Shown in pieces: positions 1,582-21,650 of a stretch of 64,000 nucleotides of DNA (the stretch's first letter is position 1; each line of letters starts with the position of its first letter). The stretch covers positions 310,001 through 374,000 of the forward strand of contig BCKL01000022.1 of NCBI GenBank assembly GCA_001600635.1, written 5' to 3'. Made by a program: the position numbers and the translations under genes. Under the pieces are notes generated by a model. That model had not been told where the DNA came from. It searched no databases and saw nothing but the letters and a program-made list of their open reading frames with translations. Source of the DNA: Leucosporidium creatinivorum (Eukaryota > Basidiomycota > Microbotryomycetes > Leucosporidiales > Leucosporidiaceae).

Positions 1582-2876
1582 TCATCCTCCATCGCTCTCT
1601 TCGCCGTCGCTCGACTCGTCCCGGCTGGGGATGTCGGGCTCGGCCCACTCTCCTCCATCCCACGTCAGCACCGGTCCCGTACTCTTGATCTCTTGGTACG
1701 CGTATCCCATACGGTCGTATTCCTCCTCGTCGTCGCAGAACAAGACCTCGAAGGGCGCGATTTCGAAGCGGATACCGAGGGATTGCAAGCGTCTGAGCAC
1801 GGGTTTGAGCTGCGACGAGTATGACATGATTGAGTAGACGTCCATTTTGAGAAACGTGAGGGTCGAAGGGCGGTGGGATGAGTTGAGGAAGGTGAGCAGC
1901 TCCTCGGCGTAGACGAGGCAGTCGTTGACTGCGAGAGTGGTGAGAGTGGAGGGGATCTCGTGAAGGGCTATGATGTTCAGGAGGTATTCCTCTGCAAGTT
2001 CAAACTGTCCGTCGACGTCGTAGGCTCCCTTCCAGTTGAGTTTGAGAAGGACCGAGAGCAGCCTCGGTAGAGCTTTACAACTCGCCAAAATCTCTTTTGC
2101 TCTCCCCGAGGCTGCTTCGACATCGATCTGATCGCTCTCCTCTGAGCATCCGGCCACGAGCTCCAGCTCTTCCAGATTCGTGAGCGTTTCGAGGCTACGA
2201 TGGTCGGCGGTGGCAGTGATTTCGAGACTCAGGCGGCGCAGGGTTGTCAGAACATGCGAAGCAAAGATTGTGAAGAAGTCTTCTTGGCAGTCCACACCGA
2301 CATCCAGGGAGACGAGAGGGTGGCGCTGGGCGGCTTGTTTGAGGCGAGCAAGCTGAGCTCGAACTGCGGGCGCCGAAGTATCCACCTCGACGCTGAGTCC
2401 GTTGATGCGGAGGCAACGGAGTTGTGCGCAAGACTCGAGATAGGTAGAAAGTAGGGTGATGTCTTGGACACATCCAAGCGTCTGCGGTACGGCGAGTTCT
2501 TTAAGTTGGGCGAGGGGGAAGATGGCGAGCGCAGCGAAGGCGAATGACAGCCCACCTGGCCCATCAACAGCGAGCTTGACAGCACCTGCAGCATGTCGGA
2601 AGATGATTTGGAGGTTTTGTGGTCTCCGTGCTCGTACGGTAAGTAGATGTCAATCTCCTTCACCGCGTGTACGAGATGCCTGCGAGCGGCCAGAGTTCGA
2701 GCGAGCTGGGCTTCTCTTCCACTGCGGACATGGTAGAGCACACTTTGGTAGAGCTGATGCTGCGCTGCCCGTAGCCATGGGTGAGAGACGAGACAGAGAT
2801 GTTTCAGGTCGTTACCCTCCTCGACCTGCTCGGCGATGGCGATGAGGAGCTCGGGCGGGAACGAGGACATCGGCAT
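1582..2876 (-). pseudogene. F-box protein A, left copy (one frame break)
   Basis: Paralogue of the intact F-box gene at 20277-21650. The N-terminus (MPMSSFPPELLIAIAEQV, then HLCLVSHPW) is a typical F-box opening, the part that would bind Skp1 in an SCF ubiquitin ligase. The rest resembles leucine-rich F-box proteins, and the C-terminus is acidic (SSDGEESDGG). The reading frame of the first ~85 codons does not continue into the C-terminal ~330 codons. Homology to the intact copy moves to another frame at about 2600-2640, and no GT-AG intron there restores phase. This is either a real single frameshift or a sequencing error. The start was chosen because it matches the intact paralogue. A 5'UTR intron (3008-3084) is conserved with the right copy. 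Confidence 0.7.
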
Positions 2877-3951
2877 GCCGACGAGGAGACGGTGTAGAGT
2901 GTGAGAAGAGCTTTTGGAGTGCTGAGCTGAGGCGCAGAGCTGGTAGAGGGTGCGAGTTGAGCTTGAAAGTAAGCGAGGAGGTGGGCGGGCGAAAGTCGAG
3001 CGAGCAGCTGTAGGGCGGTAGGCGAGAAAGCGGGAAGTCAGTGTACAGATCATCTCGTACTCTCTCCGCTCTTCCCCACTACTCACCAGCTATTCCTTCG
3101 AGCAGCGCACAGACCTTGTTGACGAGCAGCCGAGCTTGGATCCTCTCGAGCGATGAAGCGGTCGAGCGGGCTCTGTGGGCGAGCAGAAGGATCAGCAGTG
3201 GGAGCAGGGAGGTACATAGATAGAATAGATCACTCTGAGCTAGTCGAAGCGGCGTCGGAGAGCTTCCAAGGAGCGAGCGACGAGCCGGTAACGAGGAGGG
3301 AGGGGGAAGCTGAAGTGAGTCGGGCTGAGCGAGAGTTGGTTTAGTGAAGCTTCGTGTGGTCCTCTGTAGCTCTCAGTGAGCTCGATCCTCCTCCGAAGCG
3401 AGTCGAAGGCGCAGAATCAAGCGAGCAAGATGAGGGCGGAGCGAGAGAGACGAACTAGCTGCCAAGTCGAGTCACTCCCTCTTGTTCTCCTGCCATTCAC
3501 TCGTCTCGCACTTCTCGACACCTCGCTACAGCTGGGACTCGACTAAAGACTATCGACAAGCTCTCACCAGACATCTGCACTCGTCCAGCAACCTCCTCCC
3601 GAGCTCTGCCCCTTCATCGGCTCATCAAGAGCGTTCGTCGTTAACAGACGCTCTCAGACGCACATTAGCTGCTTGACAGACAGAGCAGTGAGTAGGTTCT
3701 CAGTCCTGGAGCGATATCGAAACAGCTGCTTACCCTTCCAGCCTGCAGCTCGAACCGACTCGAACTCGCTCGTCGCCGCCGAAGTCTGCCGGAAACGACC
3801 CTTCTCGACTTGTAGGCTCTTCAAGCACGCTGAAGAGGCAAATCAAAAGCTGACCGCTCCTCCACTCAGCTCTCACCCGCATCGTCGGCATCCTCGCCCC
3901 TCAGTTCTCCGCCCATTCGCGCCGAGCTCGCTGCCCTTCCTTTCCACCACC
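2877..3951. repeat. Left arm of inverted repeat; divergent F-box promoter
   Basis: The whole intergenic region between the divergent F-box genes A (minus) and B (plus) is repeated, reverse-complemented, at 19182-20276. By eye, stretches such as 3085-3230 are about 95% identical and others about 85%. Both arms keep two 5'UTR introns at matching positions: 3008-3084 facing A and 3688-3748 facing B, each with a GTGAGT donor, a CTGAC/CTTAC-type branch and a CAG acceptor. It probably acts as a bidirectional promoter. The conservation exceeds that of the coding sequences on either side. Confidence 0.85.
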
Positions 3952-5135
3952 ATGCCTCAGCCTACGCTCCCAGACGAGACGCTCGAAGAGATCCTCAAGC
4001 ATGCATGGCCATCTGCCCCTCGCGACCCTTCGGCCATCGCCAACTTCACCCTCACTTGCCGTCGTTTCCTCCCCCTCGGTCGCGCGACTCTCTACCGTAC
4101 TGTCTTCCTCTGGAGCAGCCCCCGCGCAGAACAGCCCAGCCTGCGTCCGACGCACTCGACACAGCCTCCAAAAAGCTCTTCTCCACCCTCATCACCTCGC
4201 CCCACATCGCCCTCCTCGTCCGATCTCTCCGCCTCTCGCTCGGCGGTGTCTCATCGTCCCGTCAAGCCGTAGCCCTTCTGCGCCCTCTGCTCGCCAGCTG
4301 CAGGAATGCCACAGACCTCGATATCTCGGACTACAACGCAGGCTACAGCAACATCCTAGAGGTTGCGCTGGCAGAAGGGGGAGCGGCGCTGGAGGTGTTC
4401 ACCGCCTTCGACGTCAGGTGGCCGGCCGTAGGGCTCCTCACCGCTCTTCGAGGAATGCCGCACCTCAAGAGCCTTAGCCTGGTCCTGTCCGACATGCACG
4501 GGTTCCTTGGCCAAGCTCAACTCTCCGGACACGACGAGCCACTCCCGTTCCGCCTGACCGAATTCCGCGCCGAGGGCGTCGACATGACCCCTTCACTCCT
4601 CGCCTTCATGACCAACACCTAGTATGCAACTCTCAAGTCGCTGTCTTTACCCATAAGCACCCCAATCGACTTCCCGCTCTCCACCTTCACCGCTCTCGAG
4701 ACGCTGGTCTGGCCCTTCCACGGCAACGGCCAAAGTTCGGCGGCGAGTACTCTCGCCAAAGAGCTCGGCATGTGTCCGATTCTGCGGTCAATCAAGATCC
4801 AGAAGGGCGTACGCGAGTACGCAGACCACGAGGGCAACATCAACATCTGGGAACGGGGCGACATACTCGGCAACCTTCCTCTCGCTGCGACCACTCTCCA
4901 CTTGACCGACATCTCACTCTCGACCCAATACCTCATCGAGTTCCTTCAACACCCCGAACGGTGCCCCAAGCTCCAAACTCTGGATCTCAACATGTCCTAC
5001 GCAGACCGCGACCGAGACGACGATGGCGACCACCAGCGGGAGCGGACGAGATTGGAGCTGCAGAGTATCGAAGGCCTATGCTTGGAGAGGGGCATCACGA
5101 TAGGATGGGCTGGTTGGTACGAGTATAGTGGCTAA
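3952..5135 (+). pseudogene. F-box protein B, left copy (frameshift and in-frame stop)
   Basis: Broken paralogue of the intact 393-residue F-box gene at 18000-19181. The opening MPQPTLPDETLEEILKHAW followed by CRRFLPLGRATLYR matches the intact copy (MPQPALPVELLEKIL, CRHFLPLGRTALYR), and the later blocks DTASKKLF, LGNLPL and PERCPKLQTLDLN also align. Two lesions are visible. About four bases are missing relative to the paralogue near 4110-4170, which shifts the frame. A TAG at 4620-4622 interrupts the region aligned to the intact copy's LTFLTGNS. No intron with usable GT-AG sites explains either. The start codon and the 5'UTR intron (3688-3748) are conserved. It was probably a leucine-rich F-box substrate adaptor. 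Confidence 0.75.
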
Positions 5136-5698
5136 GCATATCAATCGAGCTATGAGCGCGCCGTGTTCGCATAGAGATTCCGTTCGCCGAGCAAGTCGCT
5201 TTCACGAGGAGTGAGAGCAGCGAAGTCGGGAACAGGCGCGACAAGGAGTCGGGTGGAGAGTCAGCTTAGTGGCTCGATCTTCGTTTTGCTCCTCGCTCGT
5301 TCCCTCGGCTTAGCCCTCGTCCACTTGCTTAAACTTCGCCGAGCTCTCGCTTCGCTCTCGATCACACCGACGAGAACGGATGATGCTTTCTTTGCTATTA
5401 GCCATCATACGGAGACTAGGCTAGGGGATAGTTTTTAGGGTTCAATCGGACGAGAAGGGGGGGTATTGAGACCGCGGCGGGCGCGAGAAAAGGGAGGAAA
5501 GACGGAAGGGGGTTCGGTCGAGGTGAAGAGCGAAAGGGTGACGACGGAAACGGCGAGTGGAGTGGATGCGGTTTGCGATGTAGGTGCGAGAGGGACGAGG
5601 GGATGCGGCTGTGTGAGGAGAACGAGGTCAGCGACTGGCGATAGGCGGAGAGAGAGAGATGCGACGGACGGAAAGCGAATTGAAAAGGAGTGAGCCGT
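5136..5698. other. Convergent intergenic region
   Basis: Between the left F-box B pseudogene and the 3' end of the coiled-coil gene. No gene recognised. It is purine-rich around 5450-5690. It does not resemble the flank of the intact F-box B copy, so it marks the inner limit of the left duplication unit. Confidence 0.4.
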
Positions 5699-8600
5699 CT
5701 ACTCGTTCTGGCGGTAGAGGTCGAGCTCGTGGTTGGACTTGTCGAGGGCCTGTAGAAGAGAACTAGTAAGCCTCGCGACCTCGGCGAACGAAAGCGAAGG
5801 ATCTCAAGAACTCACCGCCTCCAACTCCGCGATCCTAGCCCTCCCCTCCGCCTCCACCTGACTCAACTTCGCCTGATGCGCCTCATGCAACCTCCTCACA
5901 TCCTCTCCACCCGTCTCCCCACCTCCCCCAGCAGCCGCCTTAGCCTCATACTCAGCCTTAATCTTGGCCATCGAATTCTCATAATCCTCCTCCCTGCTCG
6001 CCAACTCCTGCGCCCCAATCTTCTGAATGGCGTCAATGCTGCCCATAGCGTCTTCTTGCGTTTGCTTGAGCGCGGCTTGCAGATCTTGCATGTCGGATTC
6101 GGCGGTCGCGAGTTGCTCGCGGAGGGAGGAGAGCTCGGCGCTGTTGTCGACGACGGGAGTAGGAGCGGGAGTGGACTTGAGTTGCTGGAGGGCGTCTTGG
6201 GTGCTTTCGAGCTCCGAGGTCCTGCTGGTGAGGGAGGATTCGAGGGCGGTGATGGATGACTTGGCTTTGGCGAGATCCTACGGGCGAGTTCGGCGAGTCA
6301 GCGAGCGTCGCTTCTCCTCCACTTAAGCGCAACTCACCGCTCCCGTAGCGTCCAACTCGACTCTCAACGCCTTAACCTCGCCCTGCAACTCATTCCTAAT
6401 GCCCGTCACTTCATTCTCCCTCTTCGCCTCCACAGCCTCAACCTCAGCCTTATGCGCCTCCCTAAGCTGCTCGACGGTAGCCTCACTCTCCGATCGAAGG
6501 GACTTGAGGTCCTCGTGATGCGCTGCTGAAGCTTGCTCGCGCGCGAGGAGGGAAGCCTCGGAGAGGGCGGCGGCGTGAGTGGATTGTTGAGTCGAAAGGG
6601 AGGTGGTGTGTGAGATCTCGAGGGCCTGTCGACGTCGACGGGGGTCGAGGTCAGCGATGAAGAAGGGAACGAGAAAGAAGAAGGGAAGGACGAACCGAAA
6701 CCTGTTCCTCCCTCTGCCTGACCTCCTCCTCAGCCTGACTCCTCGCCTCCTCCAACTCCTTCTTCAAGCCCTCAATCTCGCCCTCCAACTTCTCCCTCGC
6801 AGCCTCGACCTCCCTCATCTTCTCCTCCCCATCCTTCTCCGCTCCCTTACTAGCCTCCTCAGCCGCCTCGCGCCTGACTTGCTCCAACTCGGCCTCATGC
6901 GCCTCCTTCAGACTGGCGACAGCGCGCTCATGCTCCTCCTTCAACGCAGCAACAGCGCCTCCCTGCTCCCTCTTAACCTCCTCCCTCCTCTTCCTCGCCT
7001 CCTCCACCTCCCTCTTCAATCCCTCAACCTCCTTCCTCCCCTCCTTCACCTCCCTCCTGCTCTCCTCAACCCCCTCCACCCCCTTCATCTGCACCGAGCT
7101 CAACTCCCTCACATGCTCCCCCCTCAACTCCTCCATCTTCCTATCATGCTCCCCACTCAATTCCTCGAGCGCCCCTCGGAGCCTGGCAGCAGCGCTCGTA
7201 GCGCCCTCTACGTCGGCCTGACGCGCGGCTTGGAGGGTGGAGAGCTCCTCTGCGTGGGACGTCTGGAGGTTAGAGTGTTCGGAGGTGAGGGACGAGAGTC
7301 GGGACTCGAGGGCAGCGATTTGAGCTTGGAGGGCGTCGGTATTGGCGCCAGAGGAGGAGGCGGTGGAGACCCATTCGTCCCGCTCGGTCTGGAGGGAGGT
7401 GATGGTGTTCTTCTGCTCCAACAGCTCGGCACTGAGGGACTCGACGCGCAAGGAGGCCGAGGTGAGAGCTTCTTGCGCGGTGGTGAGCTCGGATTGAGCT
7501 GCTTGGAGGGACGACTCGGCGGAGAGGGTTTTGGCCTTCTCCTCATCGAGCGTGGTCTGGAGGGTGGCGAGCTCCTCCGACAGGGAGGTCTTGTCGGCCG
7601 TGAGTTGAGCGACAGAAGCCTCTGCATCCTTCTTGGCCTCGTCCAGAGCGGCCTGAGCGGCGGTGAGGTCGGTTTGAAGGGAAGCGATCTGCGCCTGAGC
7701 GTCGGCGAGGGAGGCCTTGTGCTCATCGAGGTCGGCTACATGGGACTCGGAGCTGGACGAGAGGGTAGCGAGCTCTGCCTCCTTAGCCTGGAGGGCCTCC
7801 TGCGCCTGGGTGAGAGCCGCTTCCTTCTCCTCGATCTCCTTCTTGGCGTCCTCGAGAAACTTGGTCGCTTCAGCGAGGGAGGACTCCTTCTCCACGATGG
7901 TCGATTCGGCGGTATCGAGGGAGGATTGAAGGGTGGAGAGAGTAGCTTCTTTCTCCGCGAGGGAGGATTCGGCGGTCGAGAGAGCCGACTGAGCTTCAGT
8001 GAGGGAGGTGGTGGTAGTCTCGAGGGAAGCTTGAGCTTCGGCGAGCTGTCAAAGTCATCACCAATGGTCAGCGTGCTTCTCGACGTCTCAGCGAGAGAGA
8101 GCAAAAAAACCCACCTTCCTCGCCTGCTCCTCCTCGGCCGCCTTCCTCGCCGCCGCCAAAGGACTAGCCTTAGCTACACCACTAACTCCCAATCCCGCAG
8201 CCGCCGTTCCCGCTCCCACCGAACTAGCCAAACTTCCCCTCGCCCTCGCCGCTCCAGCCGTCGTACTCGTCGCTCCAACTCCCGCCTTCCTCACGCCGTT
8301 GACTGCGCCAGCGGGCTTGGCGGTAGAGACGATACCGTTTGAAGTGCTCGAGGTGCTGAGTCGTCCAGGACGGGTTGCTGTGGATCCGCCGTGCGAGGAG
8401 GCTGAGGAGGAAGGTCGGGCGGTGGGAGCGCGAGAAGGAGGCGCGGTGGTGGTGGAGGAGGAGAGGGCGCCGCGGACGCGAGGTGCGGTCGTGGTGCTAG
8501 CGGAGGAGGCGGTAGGCTTGGAGAGACGGGAGGTGGAGGAACCGAGGGTGGATGTCGTCGATTTGGGAGGGAGGGAGCCCGAGATGGAGGAGCGGACGGC

Positions 8601-9503
8601 GTGCGTCGGCCGAGCTGTCGTAGTTGCAGCTCCAGCTCCAGCGGCAGAAGAGGAGGAAGTACGAGTAGAGGAAGCGAGCGAAGACCTCAGAGGAGCGCGA
8701 GTCGTTCCCGTTCCAGTGGTCGCGGGAGCGGAGGAGGTGGTGGTAGGCTTGCGCAGAGGGGCGCGAGTAGTGCCGCTGGTGGTCGAGGAGGAGAGAGGCT
8801 TCTTGACGAGGGTGGACTTGGTTCCTGTAGTCGAAGAGATGGGAGCTTTCTTGGTGGTGGGTGCAGGAGGGGCAGGCCCTGAAGGCTCGGACTCTGTGGA
8901 AGCTGTGGGGATGGGAGACGAGTCAGCGGTCGGTGCGGGGTGAGAGTGATATGGATGTATAGAGCCATATAAGCTTGTGCAGAGGAAGCCCTCCCGTGAG
9001 GCCTGTCTGCTTTTGGTACAGCTGCAGCTGGTCGAGCCTGTGTTGGTCGACGCGATCCCTCCTCAACCTCGCTCATCTTGGCTGCCGGCTGAGCGGCCGC
9101 CTGCTAGACTACAGCGCTCTTAGCCATCTCTAGAGGTTCCCGCTCCTGGCCTGCAGCCCTACAGCTTCCTCCTTCCTCTTTTTCCTCCTCTCCACGACGC
9201 GGCGTTCGCTCCCCAGCGTGCGTTTCACTCACCTGGCTGAGCCTGCTTCTCCTTAGCGGGCTCCTCGTTCTTCTGCTCTGTATCATCCTGCACCTGTGCT
9301 AATCCTCCAGCAGCCTCGATAGCTTCCTCTGCAGTCTCCTCCATAGCAGCAGCCTCAGCGGGCGATGGCTCAACAATCGCTTGCTCCTCCTCTTGCTCTG
9401 GCTGCTCGGATGCAGAATCGTCTGAGAGCGCAGTAATGTTGGTGAGAGGAGCGTCGAGCTGCTCTTCAATGGCGGGAGAGGGGGCGTCGAGTGAGGGGTC
9501 CAT
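5699..9503 (-). CDS. Large coiled-coil protein with disordered N-terminus
   Basis: Predicted protein of about 1,050 residues in six exons. Exon 1 is acidic (MDPSLDAPSP, E/Q/A-rich). Exon 2 (about 8902-8117) is a Ser/Thr/Ala/Pro-rich, basic, low-complexity stretch with repeated TTRAPLR-like units. From ~8047 to the end, long heptad-type coiled coil is broken only by short introns. The last residues are ALDKSNHELDLYRQNE, stop at 5699-5701. Introns at ~8048-8116, ~6630-6697, ~6280-6340 and ~5757-5814 have GT-AG ends and CTGAC/CTCAC branches. The first intron (about 8903-9236) is unusually long but keeps phase 1. There is no CAP-Gly, motor or other enzymatic domain. A cytoskeletal, spindle-pole or tethering role is a guess from architecture only. 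Confidence 0.7.
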
Positions 9504-10096
9504 TCTTGTGTAGCGAGTTGGAGGAGAGAGGGAGAGCCGGGTGAGAGAGGTTGAAAGGGGGAGCAGGGAAAAGGGGTCTTGTGGTGTCGTACAGCTGCAG
9601 CTAGGTAACTCAACAAATCAGATCCACTCTCTTGTGCTACTCTGTATCTCAGCAACTCGTTGTGTGGCCTTTGGCCTGTTCGCCCAGCTTCGCAGCGCTC
9701 GCCGAACACTACTCGAGCGCCTAAGCTCGCGCTGCAGGGCAGCAGAAATGTTCCCGTTGCCAAAGGTGAGTAGCGCGTCATACTCTGCCCCTCTGTAGCT
9801 GTCCACACTCACTCCTTTCGAATCGCCTGAGCGACAATCGCGGCTCCCGTCAAGCCGCTGAACTCGGGCGAGCGCTGTAGTGCATGAGACAGCTTCGGAC
9901 GAGCAGGGATAGATAGCTACATGGTAAGGAAGAGCTACAGGATTGCTCGGAGCTCACTTGAAGATGTTACAGAGGAGCAGTCGGTCCCCCGCATGGATCA
10001 AAGCCCGAGCTCGACGCAGCTCGCTGGTTGTCTCCGTTGAAATCGCCTCGGTTTCTACAGTCAGCCCAACCTGATCTTGTACAGCTCTCAAGCGGG
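9504..10096. promoter_or_regulatory. Divergent promoter region
   Basis: Separates the start of the coiled-coil gene (minus) from the four-TM gene (plus). No protein-coding content recognised. Just before the plus-strand start there are acceptor-like tctacag and cttgtacag sequences (about 10040-10084), so the plus-strand gene probably has a 5'UTR intron. That is why the start at 10097 was preferred over the upstream in-frame ATG at 10028. Confidence 0.45.
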
Positions 10097-11707
10097 ATGA
10101 CGCCCTTATCCTCCCTTTCTGTACCCTCTCTCCTGCGCTCTTCCACCTCATCTAGCGCCCAGCCCAAGCGTCCTCTGATCCTCCTCATTGCCCTCACTTC
10201 CGTTCTATTTCACTTGTACCTCGCTTCCCGCTTGTCCCTCCTCTCCCATTCATTAGCCGACACCATCGCCAATGAAGATGGCGGATTAGGTGCAGGACAG
10301 GAAGGCGATTGGAGGAGATTGGAGGCCATGAGGATGGGAGTTGGCGTCGCTAGATTGAGCAGTTGGAGTTCAGCTGCCGTGGCGGGCTTGGGCGCTTGGG
10401 GCGTATTGAGGGTGAGTCTTGATTAGACTGCTATTGCTGGCTGATGGGGNGGGGTGCAGATTGGTGATTGCCAGAGTCGGCTCGGAGGCGGGGGCGGGGT
10501 GGGAGCGGAGAGATTGAAGCGACCAGGGGAGGATCAACTCGAGCTATCAGCCTACAGCTGCCAATCACAGACAGCTAATCACTCCTACTCTGTCACGCTA
10601 CAACAGGAGCACCTCCCCTTCCTCCGCCTCTTCACCCTCCACTCATTCATCTCGCTCCTCCTCGAACTCTGCCTCCTAGTCCTAATCATCCTCCTTACCC
10701 TCTCCACTTCCTCCACCTCGCACACCTCCCTCTCCTCCTCCCTCTGCCAATCCCTCACTTCCACCGACCTTTCCCTCGACCTCTTCGGCTACTCCCTCGA
10801 ATCCTGTGAAGAGAGGTTCGGCTCCCTCGTCCTTACCGCCCTCGGGTTCGTGGCGACAATCGCCTTGGTCAGGGCTTGGGGTAGCTTGAAGACGCTCGAG
10901 TTCTACGAAGTCATGTCCAAGCGCCATCGCAGAGGGGCAGGGGGCAAACCCTCGGCGTTGAGTATCGACACGTCCCGCTCCTCCTCCCATCGGTATAGGG
11001 ACTCGGAACCCGAGCCATCCCCTTTCAAACGACATCACTCGACCTCGAACCCTCCTCCTCATACACCGAGCGGACAGCGCATCCTACTCCTCCCCGACCC
11101 TCTCTCGAGGGCGAGGGAAGCGGCTGCTAGGTTAGAGAGCAGTGGGGGTGGTGGAACAGGGAAGGGAGGAGAGGAGGTCCCGATGTTGAGTTTGACGGCT
11201 AGTAGTCCGATGAGGGAGAGCTTTCCGCCTGTTCCGCGAGGCGGCGGGGGAGGGAGCTCGGCCGAGGGAGGAGAAGCAGGGGGAGGGGATCAGAAGTACT
11301 TGGTTTACGCGCCGGTGGTCAGTCCCTCCCTCCCGCTGCTTCTTCCTCCTTCTCCCGCTCCCTTGCTAATCCCTCCCCTCTCCATCGAACAGATGATGTC
11401 AGCCGAAGAAGCCCGTCTCGTCGGCGCTCGGGAACTCATCCTAAGCTCTCCCTCGCGCCACCACTCCTCCCATCGCCCACGCTCCCGCTCCAACGCCACC
11501 GCCACTCCCACCTCCTCCTCCTCTCGACATCTCTCCTCCCCCTCCACCGACCGCCCCCTCCCTCCCCGAAGTACGAGCGAGGATAGCTTGATTACGCCCA
11601 TCGCGGAGGCGGGGATCGAGTTCCCGCCTAGTCCGTTGGGGAGTGCGCCGCTGCCGCCGCCGTTGAGGAGGAGTGATAGTGGGAAGGGGAAGGGCAAGTT
11701 GGCTTGA
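10097..11707 (+). CDS. Four-TM membrane protein with long cytosolic tail, unknown function
   Basis: About 446 residues in three exons (10097-10411, 10607-11317, 11393-11707), all joined in phase 0. Four hydrophobic segments are visible: PLILLIALTSVLFHLYLA, VGVARLSSWSSAAVAGLGAW, FISLLLELCLLVLIILL and SLVLTALGFVATIALV. They are followed by a Ser/Pro/Arg-rich tail of about 290 residues that is probably disordered and cytosolic. The first intron is 195 nt, long for this genome, and contains the N at 10450. The second (11318-11392) is 75 nt with a GTCAGT donor and no in-frame stop, so retaining it would only add 25 residues. No family recognised. The topology is tetraspan-like, but the large-loop cysteine motif of tetraspanins was not seen. 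Confidence 0.65.
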
Positions 11708-11934
11708 AGGAGCGCCGAGAGTGGGGCAGGGCGAACTCGAGCTGCGCTCGACGGGCGCCGAAGGTGTAGCTTGTAGTGACTTCTTTATAATATGCAGAAT
11801 TATGTGATTTGCTGTCTTTTTGTCCAGGGGCGGTCAACTCTCCGCCGCCAGCTCGACTTGCGATTCCCCCGCTGCTCGGCCTTCTCCTTCCCGCTCTCAC
11901 CTCGTCTCATTTCACTTCGGCTCAGCGCAGCATT

Positions 11935-12703
11935 ATGTCCCCCTCATCAGACTACCAAACCGGCACCTCCCACGGCTTCACCTCCCTCCTCTGCACCACA
12001 CCAGAGGACATTCAGCGCTGCATGGCTATTCGGTTCGCTGTGTTCGTGACGGAGCAGGGGTATGGCGAGGAGGTGGAGGTTGACGAGTGAGTCTTGCTGC
12101 TTGCTGTGCTGCTAGGGCGAAGCTTGGGAGGGCGGAGGGAGGGCTACAACTCGAGACGCGCGGTCGCTCGCTGCAGGGCGGCCTCTCCCCCCTCCCCTCC
12201 CTGCTCCTCACCTCGCTGACTTCACGAGCTACACTCCGACACGACAGAAAGGATCCCCACTGCGACCATCTCCTGCTCGTATCGGCGGCCGGCGACGACG
12301 TAGCAACAGTTCGCCTCTTTCCCCCACTCTTCAAGCTCGGTCGCCTAGCCGTGAAAGCCAGTACACGAGGGACAGGCGCCGGTAAAATCATGATGGATGT
12401 CCTAGAAGAGCACGTCCGGTCTGGGAAAGGGCGGATGGGGGACTGGGCGAGGGAGCAAGGCAGGAGAGAGGTGACGCTGCAGGCGAATGTGCAGAAGCAT
12501 GCGGAGGGGTTTTATGAGAAGTGTGGGTATGCAGTGGAGGGGGAGGATTTCTTGGAGGTGAGTTTGTGATGCAGAGGGTGGAGGAGAGAGGGCGGAGGGA
12601 GAGGCTCGGCGATGGCTGATCCGGGAGAGCTGACGCCTTTGTGGTGATGCAGGAGGGACAGCCGCATGTCAAGATGACTAAGCTTATCAATCTGAATGCT
12701 TAG
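11935..12703 (+). CDS. GNAT family N-acetyltransferase, tandem copy 1
   Basis: Transfers an acetyl group from acetyl-CoA to an unidentified acceptor. About 170 residues in three exons; intron 1 starts after codon phase 2 in VEVDE and intron 2 after GEDFLE. The FAVFVTEQGY segment, a D/H-containing strand (DPHCDHLLLV), motif A (GRLAVKASTRGTGAGK) with the R-G-x-G-x-G/A acetyl-CoA loop, and the FYEKCGY motif B place it in GNAT. The VFV-x-EQ-x(6)-E/D pattern resembles the ElaA/YjcF branch. It ends with HVKMTKLINLNA. It is the first of three adjacent paralogues in the same orientation with equivalent intron positions, so the cluster arose by tandem duplication. Confidence 0.85.
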
Positions 12704-13038
12704 ATGAAGTGGAATAGGCGCTCTGGTAGCGATCACGAAGGCTCGGTCGAGGAGGGAGCTGAGCGCCGAGCGCCGAGAGGGAGGGTCGACTGGTTTGCGA
12801 AGAGCTCGACAGCTGGCCACTGCAAGACTCTGCACGACCTCCGAAGCACCTCCATCCGTTGACTCGAGTCGCCTTCTCACAGCCCCTGTCCTCTCAAAGG
12901 CTCAATGCGACCGCGCGGTCGACCCGATTTGACTCTTGCCTTCCTACCTTTCACTGCTCATCGGTTGAGCTTTGCATGCTTCTGCGCTCCTTCCCTTTCA
13001 CATCCTTCCTCCACTCTCAACGTATCAATAGCAGCAGC
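12704..13038. other. Spacer between GNAT copies 1 and 2
   Basis: Holds the 3'UTR of copy 1 and the upstream region of copy 2. The last ~100 bases before the ATG at 13039 are pyrimidine-rich. No further gene seen. Confidence 0.4.
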
Positions 13039-13786
13039 ATGTCCACCTTCCCGCCAGCAGCCCCGACGACGGCAGCACCTCCAACGCCGAACCCCTCCTC
13101 GACCAAACGCCGACCTCTTCCTTCGCCACTCACTACAATACGCTGCACCACACCCTCTGAGATCGAGCGCTGTATGGAGCTACGCCGCCAAGTCTTCGTA
13201 GAGGAGCAGGGCTCCCCCGCCGCTCTCAAGCTACGCAAGTTCGTCGCTCCCCTTCCTTGCCCTCCCTTTCGCCTTCCTCCCCTTCTACCTCTCCGCGCTG
13301 ACCTCGCCTCCTCACTCACAGTCCCAAAGACATCGACTCTCTCCAACTCCTCCTGCACCACCCTCCCTCCTCCACCGACATCGCTACAGTGCGCCTCCAC
13401 CTCCCCGAAATGAAGATGGGTCGTCTTGCCGTTGCTCTGCCATATCGGGGGACGGGCGCAGGGAAGCGGATGATTGATGAGTTGGAGAAGTGTGTTAGGG
13501 GCGGTGAGGGGATGGACGAGGCGAGGGAGAAGGGAGAGGAGAATGTGAAGATTAAGGCTCATGTCCAGGAGGGGCTGTTGGGGTTTTATGAAAGTTGTGG
13601 GTATATCAAGAAGGGTGGGGAGATTGATGAGGTGAGTCGACGCCCCTCTCTCGAGTCCTGGGATGGCCAAGAGGAGGAAAGAGCAGCGCCGAAGTGAGCG
13701 CCGAGCTGATCCTCCCTTCGATTGCGACTGTATAGGATGGCGTACCGCACTTCAAAGTGGCGAAGACGATTGGGTTGGATGATTAG
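13039..13786 (+). CDS. GNAT family N-acetyltransferase, tandem copy 2
   Basis: Second tandem paralogue, about 185 residues, with a Pro/Thr/Ala-rich N-terminal extension (MSTFPPAAPTTAAPP) that the other two lack. The core matches its neighbours: RRQVFVEEQ, motif A GRLAVALPYRGTGAGK, GFYESCGY, and the ending HFKVAKTIGLDD. Exons are 13039-13238, 13322 to ~13632, and a short last exon from ~13736. Intron 1 uses the donor GTTCGT at 13239. A more consensus-like GC donor four bases upstream would give the wrong phase. The same GTTCGT donor is used in the CCDC43-like gene at about 32650. The substrate is unknown. Confidence 0.8.
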
Positions 13787-14055
13787 GGCGGTCAGGAGGT
13801 GCAAGAAGCCCGTATATAGCTGTAGCAGAACAGCGAGAGAGGTCGGCTTGCTTCTCGGCTTCTTCAGAACGAGAGCAGTGCATACGAGCAAGTTTGGCCA
13901 AGTAATGGGCACTTGGCAACCTTCAAAGATTTTCTGTACCTCATGCCGGCATCGAACACTTCCGATTCTTCGCACCGCGTGGGCGAGCCGGCGAGTCATC
14001 TCCGCTCTTCTCTGCTTCCTCCCATCTCGTTCTCTCGTCTCGACTCAGCAGCAGC

Positions 14056-14748
14056 ATGACCACCAAGCCACCATTGAGCGACTACAGCTTCGTCCTACTA
14101 CAGGAGCATGAACTGCAGCGAGCGATTGACATTCGGATAGGTGCGCTTCGACTCAGACCCTTCTGCAGCTCTCCTTCGAACCTCTCGCTGACATTAAGCA
14201 TCAATACAGAGGTTTTTGTACACGAGCAAAAGTTCTCCCTGGAAGACGAGATGGACGAGTACGCTCCTCGCCTCTCCCATCCCCTGCTCGCGCTCACCTC
14301 TCCTCCTCCCTGCCAACAGCAAAGACGCCGCCTCCGACCACTTCATCCTCATCTCCCCCACCGGCCAGGACGCCGGAACGATCCGCTTCCATCCTCCTAC
14401 CGGCAAGATGGGTCGCGTAGCCCTGTTGAAGGAGCACCGAGGGACTGGAGCTGGCAAGCTGCTCGTAGATGGGATGGAGGCGCATGTGAGGAGTGGGAAG
14501 GGCAAGGGAGGGGAGTATGCTAAGGAGAAGGGATTGGAAGAGGTGTTGGTGGAGAGTATGGCGCAGTGGCAGACGGAGCCGTTTTATAAGAAGGTGAGTT
14601 CGGCGCCGAGTTGCTGAAGTCCTGCTGAGGGGATGCTGATGCTGCTCTTATCTTGCAGTGCGGCTACGAGACGGTTACAGGAGAGAGGATCATGGAGGAT
14701 GGATACCCCCACGTTCGTATGCTCAAGACGATTCAGATTGAGGCATGA
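14056..14748 (+). CDS. GNAT family N-acetyltransferase, tandem copy 3
   Basis: Third tandem paralogue, about 168 residues in four exons. It has an extra intron (about 14141-14211) just before EVFVHEQKFS, which copies 1 and 2 lack. The other two intron positions match theirs: after DEMDE, with donor GTACGC, and after EPFYKK. Motif A reads GRVALLKEHRGTGAGK, and the C-terminal CGYETVTGERIMEDGYPHV aligns with the other copies' EGQPHV and DGVPHF ends. An acetyltransferase fold is clear; the substrate is not. The 14056 start gives MTTKPPLSDYSF directly followed by the helix that aligns with the other copies. Confidence 0.85.
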
Positions 14749-15311
14749 AGAGTTTGAGATGTAGGCGAGCGGCAATCGCAGCCTACTAGAGGAGCCGAAG
14801 CCATAGAGGTGCATTGCTATCAATATATCTATCTCTGAGTGTCTGACCATGTAAGCCTTTGGCCTCTCACAATGCATCTCGAGCTCCTAGCGCCTTTCCA
14901 TTTCTGCAAAAGCTCGGCGATGATTCCGAGCCAGTTTGCAAGCGGTGCAGAGGGTCAGATGCGCCTAGCAAGTCCAAAAGACAAGCTACTAGAGAGCTGG
15001 CCTTCACTAACGAGACTCGAAGCGCAGCAAACTGTCCCCCCTTTCCTCAAAGTCCAACTCGCCGATCTCTGGCGCCGAAGCTCTTCTCCTCACGCCACAT
15101 CTCGTCGAATCGTCAGTTGCTCGTCTCAACATCACAAGAAGCTCACAAGCCAGCAGCGCCTCAGCACCTACCTAGCTACACCCGACACCTTTCTCACCCT
15201 TCTAGCCAGCTCTCGACGTCACGCTTTCCCCCATCGCTTCCGCTTCACACGACCTCGAAACTTCTTCGCCACCACTCCCCAGCAATCCTCGCTACAGCCC
15301 AACTAAGGGCC
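14749..15311. other. Upstream region of cry-DASH
   Basis: Between GNAT copy 3 and cry-DASH. An open frame in the same phase extends upstream of the cry-DASH ATG, but it encodes only Ser/His/Pro-rich sequence without similarity to a photolyase N-terminus, so the region is taken as promoter and 5'UTR. No other gene seen. Confidence 0.45.
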
Positions 15312-17715
15312 ATGTCCCGCACCATCTCCATCGCTTTGCTCAGCAAAGATCTGCGGTGAGCTCCATCTCCTGCTTCCGCGCCGTGCATTTGCCAGAGCTC
15401 ATCTCTTGTCGCCGATCGCAGAGTACACGATCAGCCGTTGCTGCACGCGATTCATCACGACAAGACGGTCTCCCACTTGCTCCCTCTCTACGTCTTTGAC
15501 GAGCGTTACCTCGAGCTCAGCGGGCTGCCTGGCTACGAGCGAGATGGACCAGAGGCAAGGACTCGGCTGTTTGGATTTTGGAGGACTGGAGTGTTCCGAG
15601 CAAGGTGAGTTGCATCATGTGCATGTCCTCCAGTCGCCCGAATGCCCCCGTAGAGGCTACAGGACGTAGCAGAGCCGAGCTGACCCTCTCTCGCTCTCGC
15701 CTGCCGCTTCGCATCCTACAGATTTCTCGCCGAGGCCGTCTACGACCTTCGCAACACGCTCAGGAGCAAGGATTCGGACCTCCTCATCCGCTTCGGCAAG
15801 ATGGAGAAGATCGTAGCGCAGGTCGCCGATGCGCTCAAGGACCACGGCGACAAGGTCAAGACCGTGTACCTGCAGAAGGATGTGAGTTATTCCCCTCGGC
15901 AGCCTCAAGATGATACTGACCGGCTTCACCCTCAGTTCTCGTCCGAGGAAGTCGCGATTGAGCGTCGCCTCAAGACCCTCCTCTCGGCGCGAGGCATCAA
16001 CCTCTCCCTCATCGACTTCGCCCCTCTCGTCGACGCCCGAGATCTCCCCTTCCCCATCTCTCAAACTCCCGATGTCTTTACCCCCTTCCGCAAGCGCGTG
16101 GAAGGAGCTGGCCCCCTCGGTCGACCACCCCTCGAGATGCCTTCGAAGTTCAAGCCGTTCCCTTCGCTAGGAGAGGGCAAGGCTTACCCCGGCTATGGCA
16201 AGGATTTGGATGCCAAGGGCGTTGAGGATGTTCTCGTTCCGCTTTTGACGCCGCTGGAGGACACTTTCGAAACCAAGTACTCGGGCAGCGCATGGCCGCG
16301 AGACAGCAAGTCGGCGTTCCCCTACGCTGGAGGAGAGACCGTCGCGCTCGAGCGTATCGACTGGTACTTCCATCAGGGTAACCCACCGCCGGTATCGAAG
16401 TACAAGGTGAGCTATTTCAATTGCGAGCCGAAGTGCAGCGCCGACGCTCACCTTTCGCTTTCGCAGGCGACGAGGAACGGTCTGCTCGGCCACGAGTACA
16501 GCACTAAGCTCTCTCCATTCCTCTGCCTGGGCATGATCTCGCCCCGCACCGTCATGCAGTCTCTGTGCGAGCACGAGGACAAGCACGGCGAATCGCAGAA
16601 CACCTACTGGGTGAGTTGCTCGCCGTCTCGCTTGCCGTGCATAGCGCTGATGTCTCTATTTATCTACAGGTCAAGTTCGAGCTGCTCTGGCGCGACTACT
16701 TCCTCTTCATCACCCGCAAGTTCGGCACCAAGCTCTTCACGCTCGGCGGCTTCGAGGAAATCACCGATCCCAAGCAGGCTAACATGAAGACCCGGCCTGG
16801 ATGGTGGAACGAGTGGGATCCCAACGGCTCGGACGATCAGCCGGCAGCGAGGTGGATGCAGGGAAAGACTGGTGTGCCCTTCATCGACGCCAACATGGTG
16901 AGTCGTCTCGGTTCGGTCTTGACTGGCGTGTGGAGCTGTGGTAAAGACGAGTGCTCACCCGGTCTCTGACCTCGACAGGCCGAGCTTCGCGAATCTGGCT
17001 TCATGTCGAACCGAGGGCGTCAGAACGTCGCCTCCTTCCTCACCAAGGACCTGCAGGTCGACTGGCGTCTCGGCGCCGAGTTCTTCGAGTCTCATCTCAT
17101 CGACTATGACGTAGGTGCTCGAGTGCCCAGTCCTCCTCGACCAGCGCTGACACTCTCTCACTGTACTACAGCCGACAGCCAACTATGGCAACTGGCAGGC
17201 GAGTTCGCTTCTTTTGGCTACTTCCCCTTGCTCAAGCTGACCCGTCTCTCACTCATATAGTACGTCGGTGGCGTCGGCAACGATCCCCGCGCTTCCAGGC
17301 AGTTCAACCCCATCAAGCAAGCCAACGACGTCCGTTCTCTCGCTCTCCCATTCTCTCGCCGCTTAAGCCTTCAGCTGATCGCTCCTCGCTTTTACAGTAC
17401 GACCCGCAAGGCACCTACATCAAGACCTGGCTCCCTCAGCTGCAACGTGTTCCCACCGCGCACATCCAGTGCCCTTGGGTCCTCAAGCCCGCTCAACGCG
17501 CCGAGTTCATCGCCGAAGGCGCCTACCCCGAGTCGCCCGTCATCGAGGCGCCCAACTGGCGCCCTCACTACCAGAAAAAGGGTCAGGGAAAGACCCACGG
17601 CAACAAGAATGAGCGGGTCAAGAACCCTGGGCCGGGAGGGCCTAAGAAGGGCGGCAAGGGAGTACACACCGACTCGGACGGCGGCCACGCAAAGAAGGAG
17701 AACAGGCGTGGCTAG
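15312..17715 (+). CDS. cry-DASH: Cryptochrome DASH / single-strand photolyase
   Basis: FAD-dependent blue-light protein of the photolyase/cryptochrome family; DASH members repair CPDs in single-stranded DNA and may act as photoreceptors. About 620 residues in ten exons. The N-terminal antenna domain begins [22 protein letters not shown] and includes [11 protein letters not shown]. The FAD domain is recognisable from [70 protein letters not shown] and the following FNPIKQ, all DASH-type. The C-terminus is a basic Gly/Lys-rich tail of about 50 residues ([11 protein letters not shown]), as in several fungal DASH proteins. Intron 8 (17199-17260) has a GC donor. The start gives a normal family N-terminus. 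Confidence 0.95.
17199..17260 (+). other. GC-AG intron in cry-DASH
   Basis: The exon ends ...GGCAACTGGCAG and the intron starts GCGAGTTC, with a CTGAC branch and a TATAG acceptor, 62 nt long, phase 0. Joining gives [16 protein letters not shown], one of the best conserved segments of the cryptochrome family. The nearest GT donor (three bases in) would put the next exon out of frame, so the GC donor is well supported. Confidence 0.85.
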
Positions 17716-17999
17716 GAGGCCAGGTGGTTGATGGAGAGTCATATGGGCGGCATAGAGATATACGAGACGAGCTGCAGTCCGTGTAGCTGCGTCGGCTTGC
17801 TCGCAAAACGAGCAGCATATCATATCGCATGTTGAGGCCTCAGTCGGGCTCTTGCGAGTCATCGAGCCAGGATGCATGACAACACTTTTTCGCCTTCCTC
17901 TGCTCTCCCTCTCCGCATAGTTGGTGCTGCACCTGCCTCGGATCTCGGCGAAGCTAGCTGCTCGGCGATCAAAGTCTCCTGCTATTGCGGCGCAGAGCA

Positions 18000-19181
18000 T
18001 CACCGGTAAAACGCCCTAGATGCATAGAAGTCCTCCCAAATCACTTTGACACCCCTCTTCGAGCACAACTTGTCGATCTTCTTCATCTCGTCGCCTCGAA
18101 ACGGGGTCTCTCCGTTGGAGGGCAGCCCGTAGAACACATTGAGTTCTAGAGTCTCGAGATTGGGACAGCGCTCGGGATGCAGGAGGAATTCGACGACGTA
18201 GGTGGTGGAAAGTGAGATCATGCCGAAGGGGAGGGTGGTCACGGAGAGGGGAAGGTTGCCGAGCAAGTTGGATTGCTCCCAAATCATAATCTTCTGCTCG
18301 TCCTCTTCGTTGTCGGCCGTATCTTGGAGCTCGATCGACCTGAGCGTAGGACAGTGAGCGAGCTGCGGGACGAGATTGGCGGCCTCTGCAGCTTGACTGT
18401 CGCCGGCGAAAGTGCAGGCGAGGCGCTCGAGTGCGGTGAATTGCGAGAGATAGAAGTCGAAGGAGATGCCTTCGGGGAGTAAAAGGTGTCTGAGGGTGGT
18501 GCGAGAGTTCCCGGTGAGAAAGGTGAGGAGGGAGGGAGGGAGGAGGATGGAGTCGGCGCAAAAGTCGGTGAGGCAGAACGGGGGTGGGCGAGTCCAGTCG
18601 AGAGGAAGGCGACGTTCTGCCCAGTACTCGTCCTCTTGTATAGCGTCGTGGGCGATAGTAAGCTGCTTGAGATGCGGCATCCCGTGAAGAGCTGTGACGA
18701 GTCCTCCCGGCGCCCACGTCACATCCTTCGCCGAGAAGCTTTCGAGCTTTCCTCCTCCTGCTGCGAGAGCCTCCTCCAAGCCGTTGTTGGCGCTCCAGAG
18801 ATAACAAGACAGCTTCAGCTCCACCACTCCCGTGCAGCCCGTGAGCAAAGGGCGTAGGATATCGGCGCCTTCAGGAGCTGCCAGTTCCAGGACGAGGTCG
18901 AGGGAGCGGACGAGATGGGCGAGATGAGGGCAGCTCGTGAGGGTGACAAAGAGTTTCTTGGATGTGTCCTCCAAGAGTTCTGTTGCAGGCCAGGAGACAG
19001 CCCGATAGTCGGCCTTGCACCAGATTGAGGCTGAGCGGTAAAGGGCGGTGCGGCCGAGTGGTAGGAAGTGTCGGCAGGCGAGGCTGAAGCTGGCGAGTGA
19101 GGCGTAGTTCTCTTCGTCGTCGGTAAAGAGCTCCTCCAGAATCTTCTCCAGCAGCTCGACGGGGAGGGCCGGCTGAGGCAT
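18000..19181 (-). CDS. F-box / LRR-like protein B, intact right copy
   Basis: A single open frame of 393 residues. The N-terminal F-box (MPQPALPVELLEKILEELF, then CRHFLPLGRTALYR) would bind Skp1. It is followed by repeated leucine-rich segments (LVRSLDLVLEL, LKQLTIAH, NLETLELNVFY), suggesting an SCF substrate adaptor. Its partner is the divergent F-box A gene at 20277, sharing the 19182-20276 promoter. A broken paralogue is at 3952-5135, in opposite orientation. A 5'UTR intron (19392-19451, 60 nt) has the same position as in the left copy. No introns lie in the coding part. It ends YASRAFYR. The substrate is unknown. Confidence 0.85.
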   Translation of the reverse strand: MPQPALPVELLEKILEELFTDDEENYASLASFSLACRHFLPLGRTALYRSASIWCKADYRAVSWPATELLEDTSKKLFVTLTSCPHLAHLVRSLDLVLELAAPEGADILRPLLTGCTGVVELKLSCYLWSANNGLEEALAAGGGKLESFSAKDVTWAPGGLVTALHGMPHLKQLTIAHDAIQEDEYWAERRLPLDWTRPPPFCLTDFCADSILLPPSLLTFLTGNSRTTLRHLLLPEGISFDFYLSQFTALERLACTFAGDSQAAEAANLVPQLAHCPTLRSIELQDTADNEEDEQKIMIWEQSNLLGNLPLSVTTLPFGMISLSTTYVVEFLLHPERCPNLETLELNVFYGLPSNGETPFRGDEMKKIDKLCSKRGVKVIWEDFYASRAFYR

Positions 19182-20276
19182 GGCGGTGGAAAGGAAGGGG
19201 CAGCGAGTTCGGCGCGAATGGGCGATGAAAAGAGGGGCGAGGATGCCGACGATGCGGGTGAGAGCTGAGTGGAGGAGCGGTCAGCTTTTGATTTGCCTCT
19301 TCAGCGTGCTTGAAGAGCCTACAGGTCGAGATTGGTCGTTTCGAGCAGACTTCGGCGGCGACGAGCGAGTCCGACTCCGAGTCGGTTCGAGCTGCAAAAT
19401 TGAGGGTGAGCAGGTATCTTGATGTTGCTCTGAGATTGACAGCAGACTCACCACTCTCTTTTTTAAGCAGCTAATGTGCGTCTGAGAGCGTCTGTTGACG
19501 ACGAACGCTTTTGATGAGCTGATGAAGGGGCGGCAGCGCTCGAGGGGAGGTTGCTGGGCGAGTGCAGATGTCTGGTGAGAGCTTGTCGAGACTTTGGAGT
19601 CGAGTGTAAGCTGTAGCGAGCGAGGTGTCGAGAAGAACGACGAGTGCATGGCAGGAGAGAGAAGGGAGTGACTCGACTTGGCAGCTAGTTCGTCTCTCTG
19701 ATCTCGCTCCGACCTCATCTTGCTCGCTTGTTTCTGCGCCTTCGATTCGCTTCGGAGGAGGATACAGCTCGGTGAAAGCTTCAGAGGACCACACGAAGCT
19801 TCACTACACCAGCTCTCGCTCAGCTCGACTTGCTACAGCTGCTTCCCTTCTTCGCCCTCGTTCCCCGCTCGTCGCTCGTTGCTAGGAAGCTCTCCGGCAC
19901 CGCTTCACATAGCTCAGGGTGACCTCTTCTATCCGTGTACCTCCCTGCTCCCACCGCTGATCCTTCTGCTCGCCCGCAGAGCCCGCTCGACCGCTTCATC
20001 GCTCGAGAGGATCCAAGCTCGGCTGCTCGTCAACAAGGTCTGTGCGCTGCTCGAAGGAATAGCTGGTGAGTAGTGGGGAAGAACTGAGAGAGTACGAGAT
20101 GATCTGTACACTGACTTCCCGCTTTCTCGCCTACCGCCCTACAGCTGCTCGCTCGACTTTCGCCCGCCCAACCTCTTCGCTTACTTTCAAGCTCAACTCG
20201 CGCCCTCCACCAGCTCTGCGCCTCAGCGCTGCACTCTAAAAGCTTTCGTAACACTCCACACCTCCGGCCAACCGAG
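19182..20276. repeat. Right arm of inverted repeat; divergent F-box promoter
   Basis: Reverse-complement copy of 2877-3951, separating intact F-box B (minus) from intact F-box A (plus). Matching 5'UTR introns are present: 19392-19451 facing B and 20066-20144 facing A. Small indels distinguish the arms, but long stretches (for example 19960-20070 against 3085-3195) differ by only a few bases. The arms are about 15 kb apart and inverted, so recombination between them would invert the intervening block and swap promoter partners. Confidence 0.85.
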
Positions 20277-21650
20277 ATGCCCATCTCCTCTTTCCCGCCC
20301 GAGCTCCTCGTCGCCATCGCCGAGCAGGTTGGCAATGGCGGAGAACCCGGGAACCTCCGAGACCTTTACCATCTTTGCCTCGTCTCACACCACTGGTACC
20401 GAGCCGCTTCGCGAGAGCTTTATCGGGCTGTCGCCTGCCAGCGCCAGGTCTGTAGAGCAGCTCAACTAGCCAGGACAATTGCCGCTCGCCCCGATCTCGC
20501 AAGTGCGCTGCGACACTTCACCATCGACCTTCCCCCTCCCGAGGACGACTCTGAATCGATCTTCCAACTCACGGCAATCCTATGTGGCGCCTGCAACATC
20601 ACGAGGCTCACCTTCCTCGACGCCACTTTCCCGAGCCTCCTCCCGCTCGCTACCTCGTTGATGTTGCCTAGACTTCGAGAGCTGGAGTACCGACAGCCCC
20701 TCGAGGATCGGGAGGCACTATCCCACTTCACCGACTTCCTCGCGACATGTGCGCCGCTCGAACGCCTCCACTTTGTAGGCGTCGAGTTCTACGACGACGA
20801 TAACCTTCCCACCGAGCTTCGCCAGCTCGAGGAGATAGCAAAGCGCCACACCCTCACCTCTCTTGGGATAGGAGTCACCTTCCCAGACAACTCGATCTAC
20901 GTCCTCGCCTCTCACTCCTTCGCCACCCTTCAGCGCCTTGACCTCGAGATCACCGTCGCCGTCGAGCCCGGAGCACTCGGCATGCTAACGGAGTTGCAGG
21001 CGCTCAGGCTCTACACTGGGTTTGTCGAAGATTGGGAGCTTTTGACCGCCTGTGAGGCTTCCATACGAGCCAAGAAGGTGTTGCGAAGCTTCAAGACTTT
21101 GCCGAAGCTTCGTTCGCTCGAGCTTGACCTCAATTGGCGACCAACGTACTACCTGGAGGCGGAGCGAGGACGAGACAAAGGACCAGCCTACGACTACATA
21201 CTGGATGTTGGAGTCCTGCAGGAGCTCCCCGTCATACTGTCGACTCTCCTCATCACCCGGTCGCTATTGAGCTCGGACGACTTCCTCACCTTCCTCAACG
21301 CGCCAGCCTGCCCTCCTTCCCTCGCATTCGTTAAGTGTGATCATTACTCGCAGGGCATCTACGGCCCATGGAACCTCAAGCCCACCCTACGCCGTCTCCA
21401 TTCGCTCGGCATCCGATATGAGGTCGCCGCCTTCGTCGTCGACTTCTCCGACTCCCACAGCGATAAGCGCACGCCGTGGTATACGATTGACAGCGTGGAG
21501 GACACTGGGCGCGTGTTCACATGGGGGGGAGGGCACTTCGGCGTATGGAACCTCCCGAGCTTAGACGAGTCGGAGTCGGAGGAGACAGAGGACGAGGAGA
21601 GCGAGGGAAGCGAAGGCGAGACGACAGACGAGGAGGAGGGCGGGGAATGA
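20277..21650 (+). CDS. F-box / LRR-like protein A, intact right copy
   Basis: An uninterrupted frame of 457 residues. The F-box is at residues ~3-45 (ISSFPPELLVAIAEQV, YHLCLVSHHWYRAASREL), then leucine-rich repeats of irregular length (ITRLTFLDATFPSLL, LERLHFVGVEF, LQRLDLEITV, LRSLELDLNW). The C-terminus is a strongly acidic tail of about 35 residues (SESEETEDEESEG). Expected role: SCF ubiquitin-ligase adaptor with unknown substrate. It is the intact counterpart of the broken gene at 1582-2876; protein identity between the two is only about half by eye, whereas their upstream regions are nearly identical. The start follows a conserved 5'UTR intron (20066-20144). Confidence 0.88.
   Translation: MPISSFPPELLVAIAEQVGNGGEPGNLRDLYHLCLVSHHWYRAASRELYRAVACQRQVCRAAQLARTIAARPDLASALRHFTIDLPPPEDDSESIFQLTAILCGACNITRLTFLDATFPSLLPLATSLMLPRLRELEYRQPLEDREALSHFTDFLATCAPLERLHFVGVEFYDDDNLPTELRQLEEIAKRHTLTSLGIGVTFPDNSIYVLASHSFATLQRLDLEITVAVEPGALGMLTELQALRLYTGFVEDWELLTACEASIRAKKVLRSFKTLPKLRSLELDLNWRPTYYLEAERGRDKGPAYDYILDVGVLQELPVILSTLLITRSLLSSDDFLTFLNAPACPPSLAFVKCDHYSQGIYGPWNLKPTLRRLHSLGIRYEVAAFVVDFSDSHSDKRTPWYTIDSVEDTGRVFTWGGGHFGVWNLPSLDESESEETEDEESEGSEGETTDEEEGGE

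Follow-up and report, generated by a model that had tools for sequence, protein, structure and literature searches.

In venom gene families, untranslated regions (UTRs) and introns are better conserved than exons and protein change is accelerated, while lineage-specific expansions of F-box genes with birth-and-death evolution are known from nematodes and plants. The nearest system that we found in print, the wtf genes of Schizosaccharomyces pombe, is a dispersed, fast-changing fungal family which, in the portions of two papers that were available, keeps about 288 bp upstream of exon 1 conserved and undergoes non-allelic gene conversion that extends into the promoters, with trees of different segments disagreeing (PMC11497594, PMC6526906). 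Here we describe F-box-like genes of the basidiomycete Leucosporidium creatinivorum, centered on a stretch of 64,000 nucleotides (the window; positions 310001-374000 of contig C22, BCKL01000022.1, in the one genome analyzed, 27.7 Mb in 63 contigs). The window holds two inverted copies of a divergent gene pair, A and B, and the arm between the two start codons of each pair is far better conserved than the proteins on either side of it.

The best reading of the data is a large, lineage-specific F-box family with strongly diverged proteins and nearly unchanged start regions. By analogy, it appears to share with the wtf genes both the conserved upstream stretch and non-allelic conversion, whereas wtf proteins are spore killers and antidotes and those described here are F-box-like; the F-box leader is also longer, appears to be spliced twice, and is divergent in three pairs. 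Pfam includes a wtf model, and none was among the matches at an E value of ≤1 for 10 family proteins. Many paralogues, diverged proteins, and broken members recall the nematode and plant F-box expansions, as far as listings of that literature allow a comparison, and a search of open-access papers at the level of listings gave no report of leaders better conserved than F-box proteins. As in venom families, noncoding parts are better conserved than the protein, but there the proteins are accelerated, whereas here four-fold degenerate sites are near saturation as well, which makes the leader the exceptional part. A conserved untranslated leader next to a variable protein reverses the usual order. 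The family offers a natural experiment on 5'UTR function, since an alignment of so many leaders picks out the important bases. It also allows a test of whether common leaders promote ectopic exchange of coding regions, by which new substrate adaptors could arise.

Arms and genes of the inverted cassette

Comparison of the window with itself gave one strong inverted match, 2824-5001 against 20329-18128. Within it, self-comparison and alignment delimit a left arm (2877..3951), with the A leader on the minus strand and the B leader on the plus strand, and a right arm (19182..20276), with the B leader on the minus strand and the A leader on the plus strand; each arm is two gene leaders placed back to back. 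The left arm and the reverse complement of the right arm are 88% alike. When the left arm and its genes were compared with the inverted right copy in 50-base steps, identity between 2901 and 3950 was 80 to 100% in all but one of the 21 steps (3701-3750, at 69%), dropped sharply to about 72% at both start codons, and was mostly 40 to 70% inside the genes.

The A proteins (left gene, 1582..2876, minus strand, with the start codon beginning at 2876; right gene, 20277..21650, plus strand) are 41% identical over 432 aligned amino acids, and the B proteins (left gene, 3952..5138, plus strand, start codon at 3952; right gene, 18000..19181, minus strand) are 45% identical over 375. Four-fold sites, counted only at codons with common first two bases, agree at 45% of 110 sites for A and 53% of 105 sites for B. 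Since the arms are 88% alike against these values, they are much better conserved than synonymous sites, and the inverted duplication with arms far more alike than proteins, proposed in a first-pass annotation, is confirmed. The annotation had also described the flanks beyond the stop codons as unmatched, and the 50-base comparison likewise found no match there between the two cassettes. Its count of two copies did not stand. At least nine places match the left arm (one on contig C32 and eight on C22, counting the arm itself), and a whole gene family shows the pattern. An assembly artifact was rejected because the copies, at 88% identity, differ by many length changes and at least nine places carry the sequence.

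Both right genes are open, with 457 amino acids in the F-box-like A330 (protein search and Pfam) and 393 in B329 (protein search and frame). Both left genes look broken. A313, with an F-box-like N terminus, changes frame somewhere in about 2515-2650 and is open from the ATG for 209 amino acids, while B313 changes frame at 4113-4125 and has an in-frame TAG at 4620-4622; assembly error is possible for part of these frame breaks.

Leader anatomy and the shared box

Aligned A leaders follow one plan, namely a box and exon 1, intron 1, exon 2, intron 2, and exon 3 with the ATG, and the leaders of 12 genes on contig C1 follow the same plan. Leader alignment and splice signals place intron 1, exon 2, and intron 2 of the left A leader at 3173..3233, 3087..3172, and 3008..3086 (GT..AG; minus strand) and those of the right A leader at 19919..19979, 19980..20065, and 20066..20144 (plus strand). 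In the left B leader, splice signals suggest introns at 3688..3741 and 3812..3869 (plus strand). The two 5'UTR introns per leader that had been predicted earlier were thus both found to have splice signals. Exon 2 is the best-conserved part of the A leader, with an 11-base invariant run in all nine sequences, including the C32 copy, and in the left A leader the run at 3106-3123 is common to all A leaders except for small changes. Single-base length differences that break every reading frame, together with the missing ATG, led us to reject exon 2 as coding sequence.

A box of about 45 bases lies some 350 to 630 bases upstream of the start codon and is shared with F-box leaders of other contigs. 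A box model trained on a set that included the left B box and excluded the other three places the four leaders of the window at ranks 1, 2, 3, and 5, corresponding to the left B box (3463..3535, plus strand, 45.5 bits), the right B box (19619..19675, minus strand, 21.1 bits), the left A box (3390..3453, minus strand, 20.0 bits), and the right A box (19696..19758, plus strand, 12.0 bits). Nine bases separate the A box from the B box in the left pair, which would leave the two promoters with a very small shared core. The model also matched 35576-35630 on the minus strand (12.5 bits, E value of 0.005), with no known F-box gene behind it.

Allowing up to three mismatches, a search of the genome with a 26-base box pattern gave 23 places (11 on C1, 9 on C26, 2 on C32, and 1 on C8), and the reversed control gave none. 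An F-box start follows at 21 of the 23, several of these starts being judged by eye, and eight of the 23 places were read over 251 bases each. All 11 places on C1, which belong to the 12-gene set, and all 9 on C26 (four recognized by Pfam and five by eye, one of the latter showing a change of frame) have such a start, as does one of the two on C32 (by eye); the single place on C8 does not. The box is nearly exclusive to these genes. Among 46 upstream regions (350 to 640 bases before the ATG, C1 genes beyond the 12-gene set being excluded), 33 contain the box. With a C1 leader as the query, further leaders were found on C1 alone, in 17 rows, from which the 12 genes were analyzed and five shorter and weaker rows (near 796, 872, and 1010 kb) were excluded. 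Exon 1 of 14 C1 leaders carries GAAGCTC 28 times on the sense strand and twice on the other.

Constraint on the leaders

The 12 C1 genes form 66 pairs, reduced to 65 by excluding one pair with identical coding regions. Mean identity was 0.70 for leaders, 0.47 for coding sequences, 0.40 for four-fold sites, and 0.33 for proteins, and leaders exceeded four-fold sites in all 65 pairs. The same held in 28 of 28 pairs from the eight A genes, some with as few as 16 four-fold sites. By segment (g1267 left out, giving 11 genes and 55 pairs; references, 0.41 for four-fold sites and 0.31 for chance), identity was 0.87 in the box, 0.78 in the rest of exon 1, 0.76 in exon 2, 0.70 in the first part of exon 3, and 0.44 in its remainder. 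The intron interiors, which are short (in each pair about 11 and 22 bases could be aligned), gave 0.52 and 0.33, and the 3' parts of the introns gave 0.76 and 0.60.

Spliced C1 leaders contain 2 ATG in 4,753 bases against 13.1 (standard deviation [SD], 3.0) in dinucleotide shuffles, and spliced A leaders contain none in 3,378 bases against 7.8 (SD, 2.4). The same letters in other orders are commoner in the C1 leaders (AGT, 19; GAT, 29; GTA, 6; TAG, 26; TGA, 15), and ATG density drops to zero on passing from the upstream sequence into the box. The leader introns show no such depletion (13 against 15.8 on C1 and 18 against 14.2 in the A family). Depletion confined to exons fits a scanned, spliced 5'UTR and favors the predicted introns. 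Since the exons are conserved and almost without ATG while the C1 intron interiors have diverged, the arms are most likely selected promoters with spliced 5'UTRs, a reading in which transcription start, splicing, and function are deduced from sequence. Selection on the promoter or leader had been suggested earlier, and the wider F-box family supports it.

Mosaic arms and conflicting trees

Divergent A/B pairs lie near 290, 313, and 329 kb on C22, the first about 20 kb from the window pair, and the A-side arm of the 290-kb pair is 94% like the left arm, nearer to it than the right arm is. The three arms were compared in 100-base steps. In the B half, the left and right arms agree at 79 to 96%, and the 290-kb copy reaches 42 to 67% against both. 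In the distal A half (3201-3500), the left and 290-kb arms are 96 to 98% alike, with the right arm at 82 to 93% against the left; at 3001-3200 all three are 96 to 98% alike; and in the final stretch before the A start codon, the right and 290-kb arms agree at most informative sites. Over 250 informative sites there are 178 same-type neighbors against 122 (SD, 6) in shuffles, none of which reached 178 in 20,000 rounds, and in the A half alone there are 42 against 28 (P = 2 × 10−4). Exchange of arm segments among the three pairs is the best explanation for this mosaic, which supports the earlier suggestion of gene conversion in the arms.

The trees conflict as well. On C1, leader data reject the protein tree (approximately unbiased [AU] test, P = 4 × 10−5) and protein data reject the leader tree (P = 1.5 × 10−4), and the first of these two rejections is also found in the A family (P = 0.008). 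Two C1 cases run in opposite directions. In g1351/g1361, the leaders are 0.90 alike (lowest in intron 2, at 0.65) and the proteins 0.42, whereas g1241/g1267 have identical coding regions with leaders that are just 0.89 alike. Beyond the coding region the latter two are 98 to 100% alike, and their sequences upstream of the box bear no relation to each other. They lie in a 4.6-kb inverted repeat (C1:1241773-1246377 and 1262804-1267390; loci L042, L076, L077, and L043), 98.1% alike overall, whose outer end coincides with the leader box. Leaders and coding regions therefore have partly different histories, and the mosaic together with the conflicting trees indicates that both have also been exchanged.

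Weighing the explanations

These observations are probably best accounted for by a lineage-specific F-box family that combines strong constraint on the leader, weak constraint on the protein, and non-allelic gene conversion. Purifying selection would preserve the leader since it sets the expression of the family, the proteins would be only weakly constrained, and conversion would copy leader segments from gene to gene, at times setting a coding region behind a different leader, with the tract ending near the start codon. Constraint would account for the persistence of leaders relative to proteins throughout the family, and exchange for the close likeness of three arms, introns included, although their genes diverged long ago and the left genes look broken.

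Several points weigh against this combination of constraint and conversion. At the threshold used, 13 of the 46 upstream regions lack the box, and the match upstream of a further F-box-like gene in the window (24976-26286) is weak (26336-26395, 9.2 bits). Many family members score under the Pfam F-box cutoff, and start sites and introns are themselves predictions from the DNA. Intron 2 of the five unpaired A leaders is 0.77 alike in its interior and 0.92 in its 3' part, unexpected under pure exon constraint. In the A family, the leader tree is not rejected when tested on the protein data (P = 0.23). Finally, these data give no direction by which to separate conversion from replacement of the coding part.

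A bolder version, which we consider unlikely but worth stating, is that the leader is a dedicated expression element of the whole family, recognized in the RNA, and also a homology hinge for the exchange of coding cassettes. Recombination ending near the start codon would put new F-box coding regions behind resident leaders, keeping one expression programme while the substrate adaptors, perhaps acting as selfish or self/non-self genes, are renewed.

Could gene conversion alone keep the arms alike, with a leader of no special function? The mosaic would follow, as would intron 1 interiors that are 0.85 alike in the trio of A/B pairs but 0.38 alike in the five A leaders outside it, and a left arm that stays close to the others even though its genes look broken. 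We nevertheless regard this as improbable, given that C1 exons stay alike and intron interiors do not, that ATG is missing from exons only, and that the invariant run of exon 2 is still present in the C32 copy. The converse, purifying selection on leaders with no exchange, ranks just behind it in our judgment: the exon, box, and ATG patterns are what it predicts, but the mosaic arms and the tree conflict on C1 are not, and in the trio leader introns are 85 to 100% alike where four-fold sites are 43 to 57% alike.

Repeated inversion between the two arms, which would swap A and B partners and flip the block between them, draws on the inverted arrangement of cassettes about 15 kb apart and on the other inverted pair on C1. 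It is very unlikely, as the single genome presents one orientation and no second one was seen, and the mosaic takes in a third pair and short segments, for which conversion suffices. That the arm is itself a gene, structured RNA, or mobile element is hardly credible. Copies are many and on both strands, and the spliced alignment of 11 C1 leaders folds more stably than shuffled columns (z of about −4, under a control that does not keep dinucleotides), with weak covariation (3 of 100 shuffles reach the covariation term); but single-base length changes break the frame of exon 2, ATG is almost absent, Rfam gave no match over 1500-22000, and all eight C22 copies directly precede an A gene. Fast, perhaps positively selected change of the proteins of otherwise ordinary duplicates, suggested by most pairs being 25 to 56% identical, was dropped as the sole cause and deserves next to no credence because four-fold sites too are almost saturated, though selection on the protein should leave them untouched.

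Extent of the F-box family

A protein search with A330 returned 11 rows, which amount to eight A genes, all on C22, plus a weak match on C1, and a copy of the arm lies directly upstream of all eight. The search with B329 returned 53 rows (33 on C1, 11 on C22, 5 on C32, 2 on C34, and 1 each on C3 and C9). Open frames from the ATG are 408 to 457 amino acids in A330, A163, A239, A130, and A194 and shorter in A291 (253) and A121 (93), as in A313. A six-frame search of the genome with the Pfam F-box-like model gave at least 128 matches (150 of 330 candidates scored). With PF12937 in six frames, A239 (36.4 bits), A121, A194, A130, B290, and A330 (24.3 bits) are at or over the 24.3-bit cutoff, whereas in single-protein scans A330, B329, B290, and four C1 proteins fall under it and no F-box match was obtained for the pieces of the two left genes. 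C-terminal leucine-rich repeat (LRR) models matched only far under their cutoffs in Pfam scans. F-box genes on C26, C8, and C17 (loci L063 to L071) have contig-specific leaders that are 69 to 85% alike, so subfamilies seem to expand and homogenize per contig.

In the portion of the source that was available, F-box domains are described as depleted in Microbotryum lychnidis-dioicae, and a table row lists 7 PF00646 proteins in its first column, taken as this species and counted by a method different from that behind our six-frame 128 (PMC4469406). In searches outside this genome, B329 matched 0 of 7,998 scored candidates at an E value of ≤0.001, which leaves absence elsewhere unproven since only candidates sharing most words were scored, and the 15-row alignment A1 gave just three weak matches among 7,997 candidates chosen likewise. 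Because these searches yielded at most weak matches, relatives outside this genome were unusable. The left cassette had no match in a plasmid collection. A mating-type locus was rejected, the STE3 match being on C25 and not C22.

Elsewhere in the window, the F-box-like gene at 24976-26286 is on the minus strand and scores 19.6 bits, under the Pfam cutoff. A SEC31-like frame has, among named hits, the closest matches in Microbotryomycetes (Microbotryomycetes sp. JL201, 72%; Meredithblackwellia, 72%; Microbotryum, 63 to 66%), in line with the class of the source fungus. Between the two cassettes, a coiled-coil frame contains a short internal repeat at 6740-7031 (40 bases, 90%).

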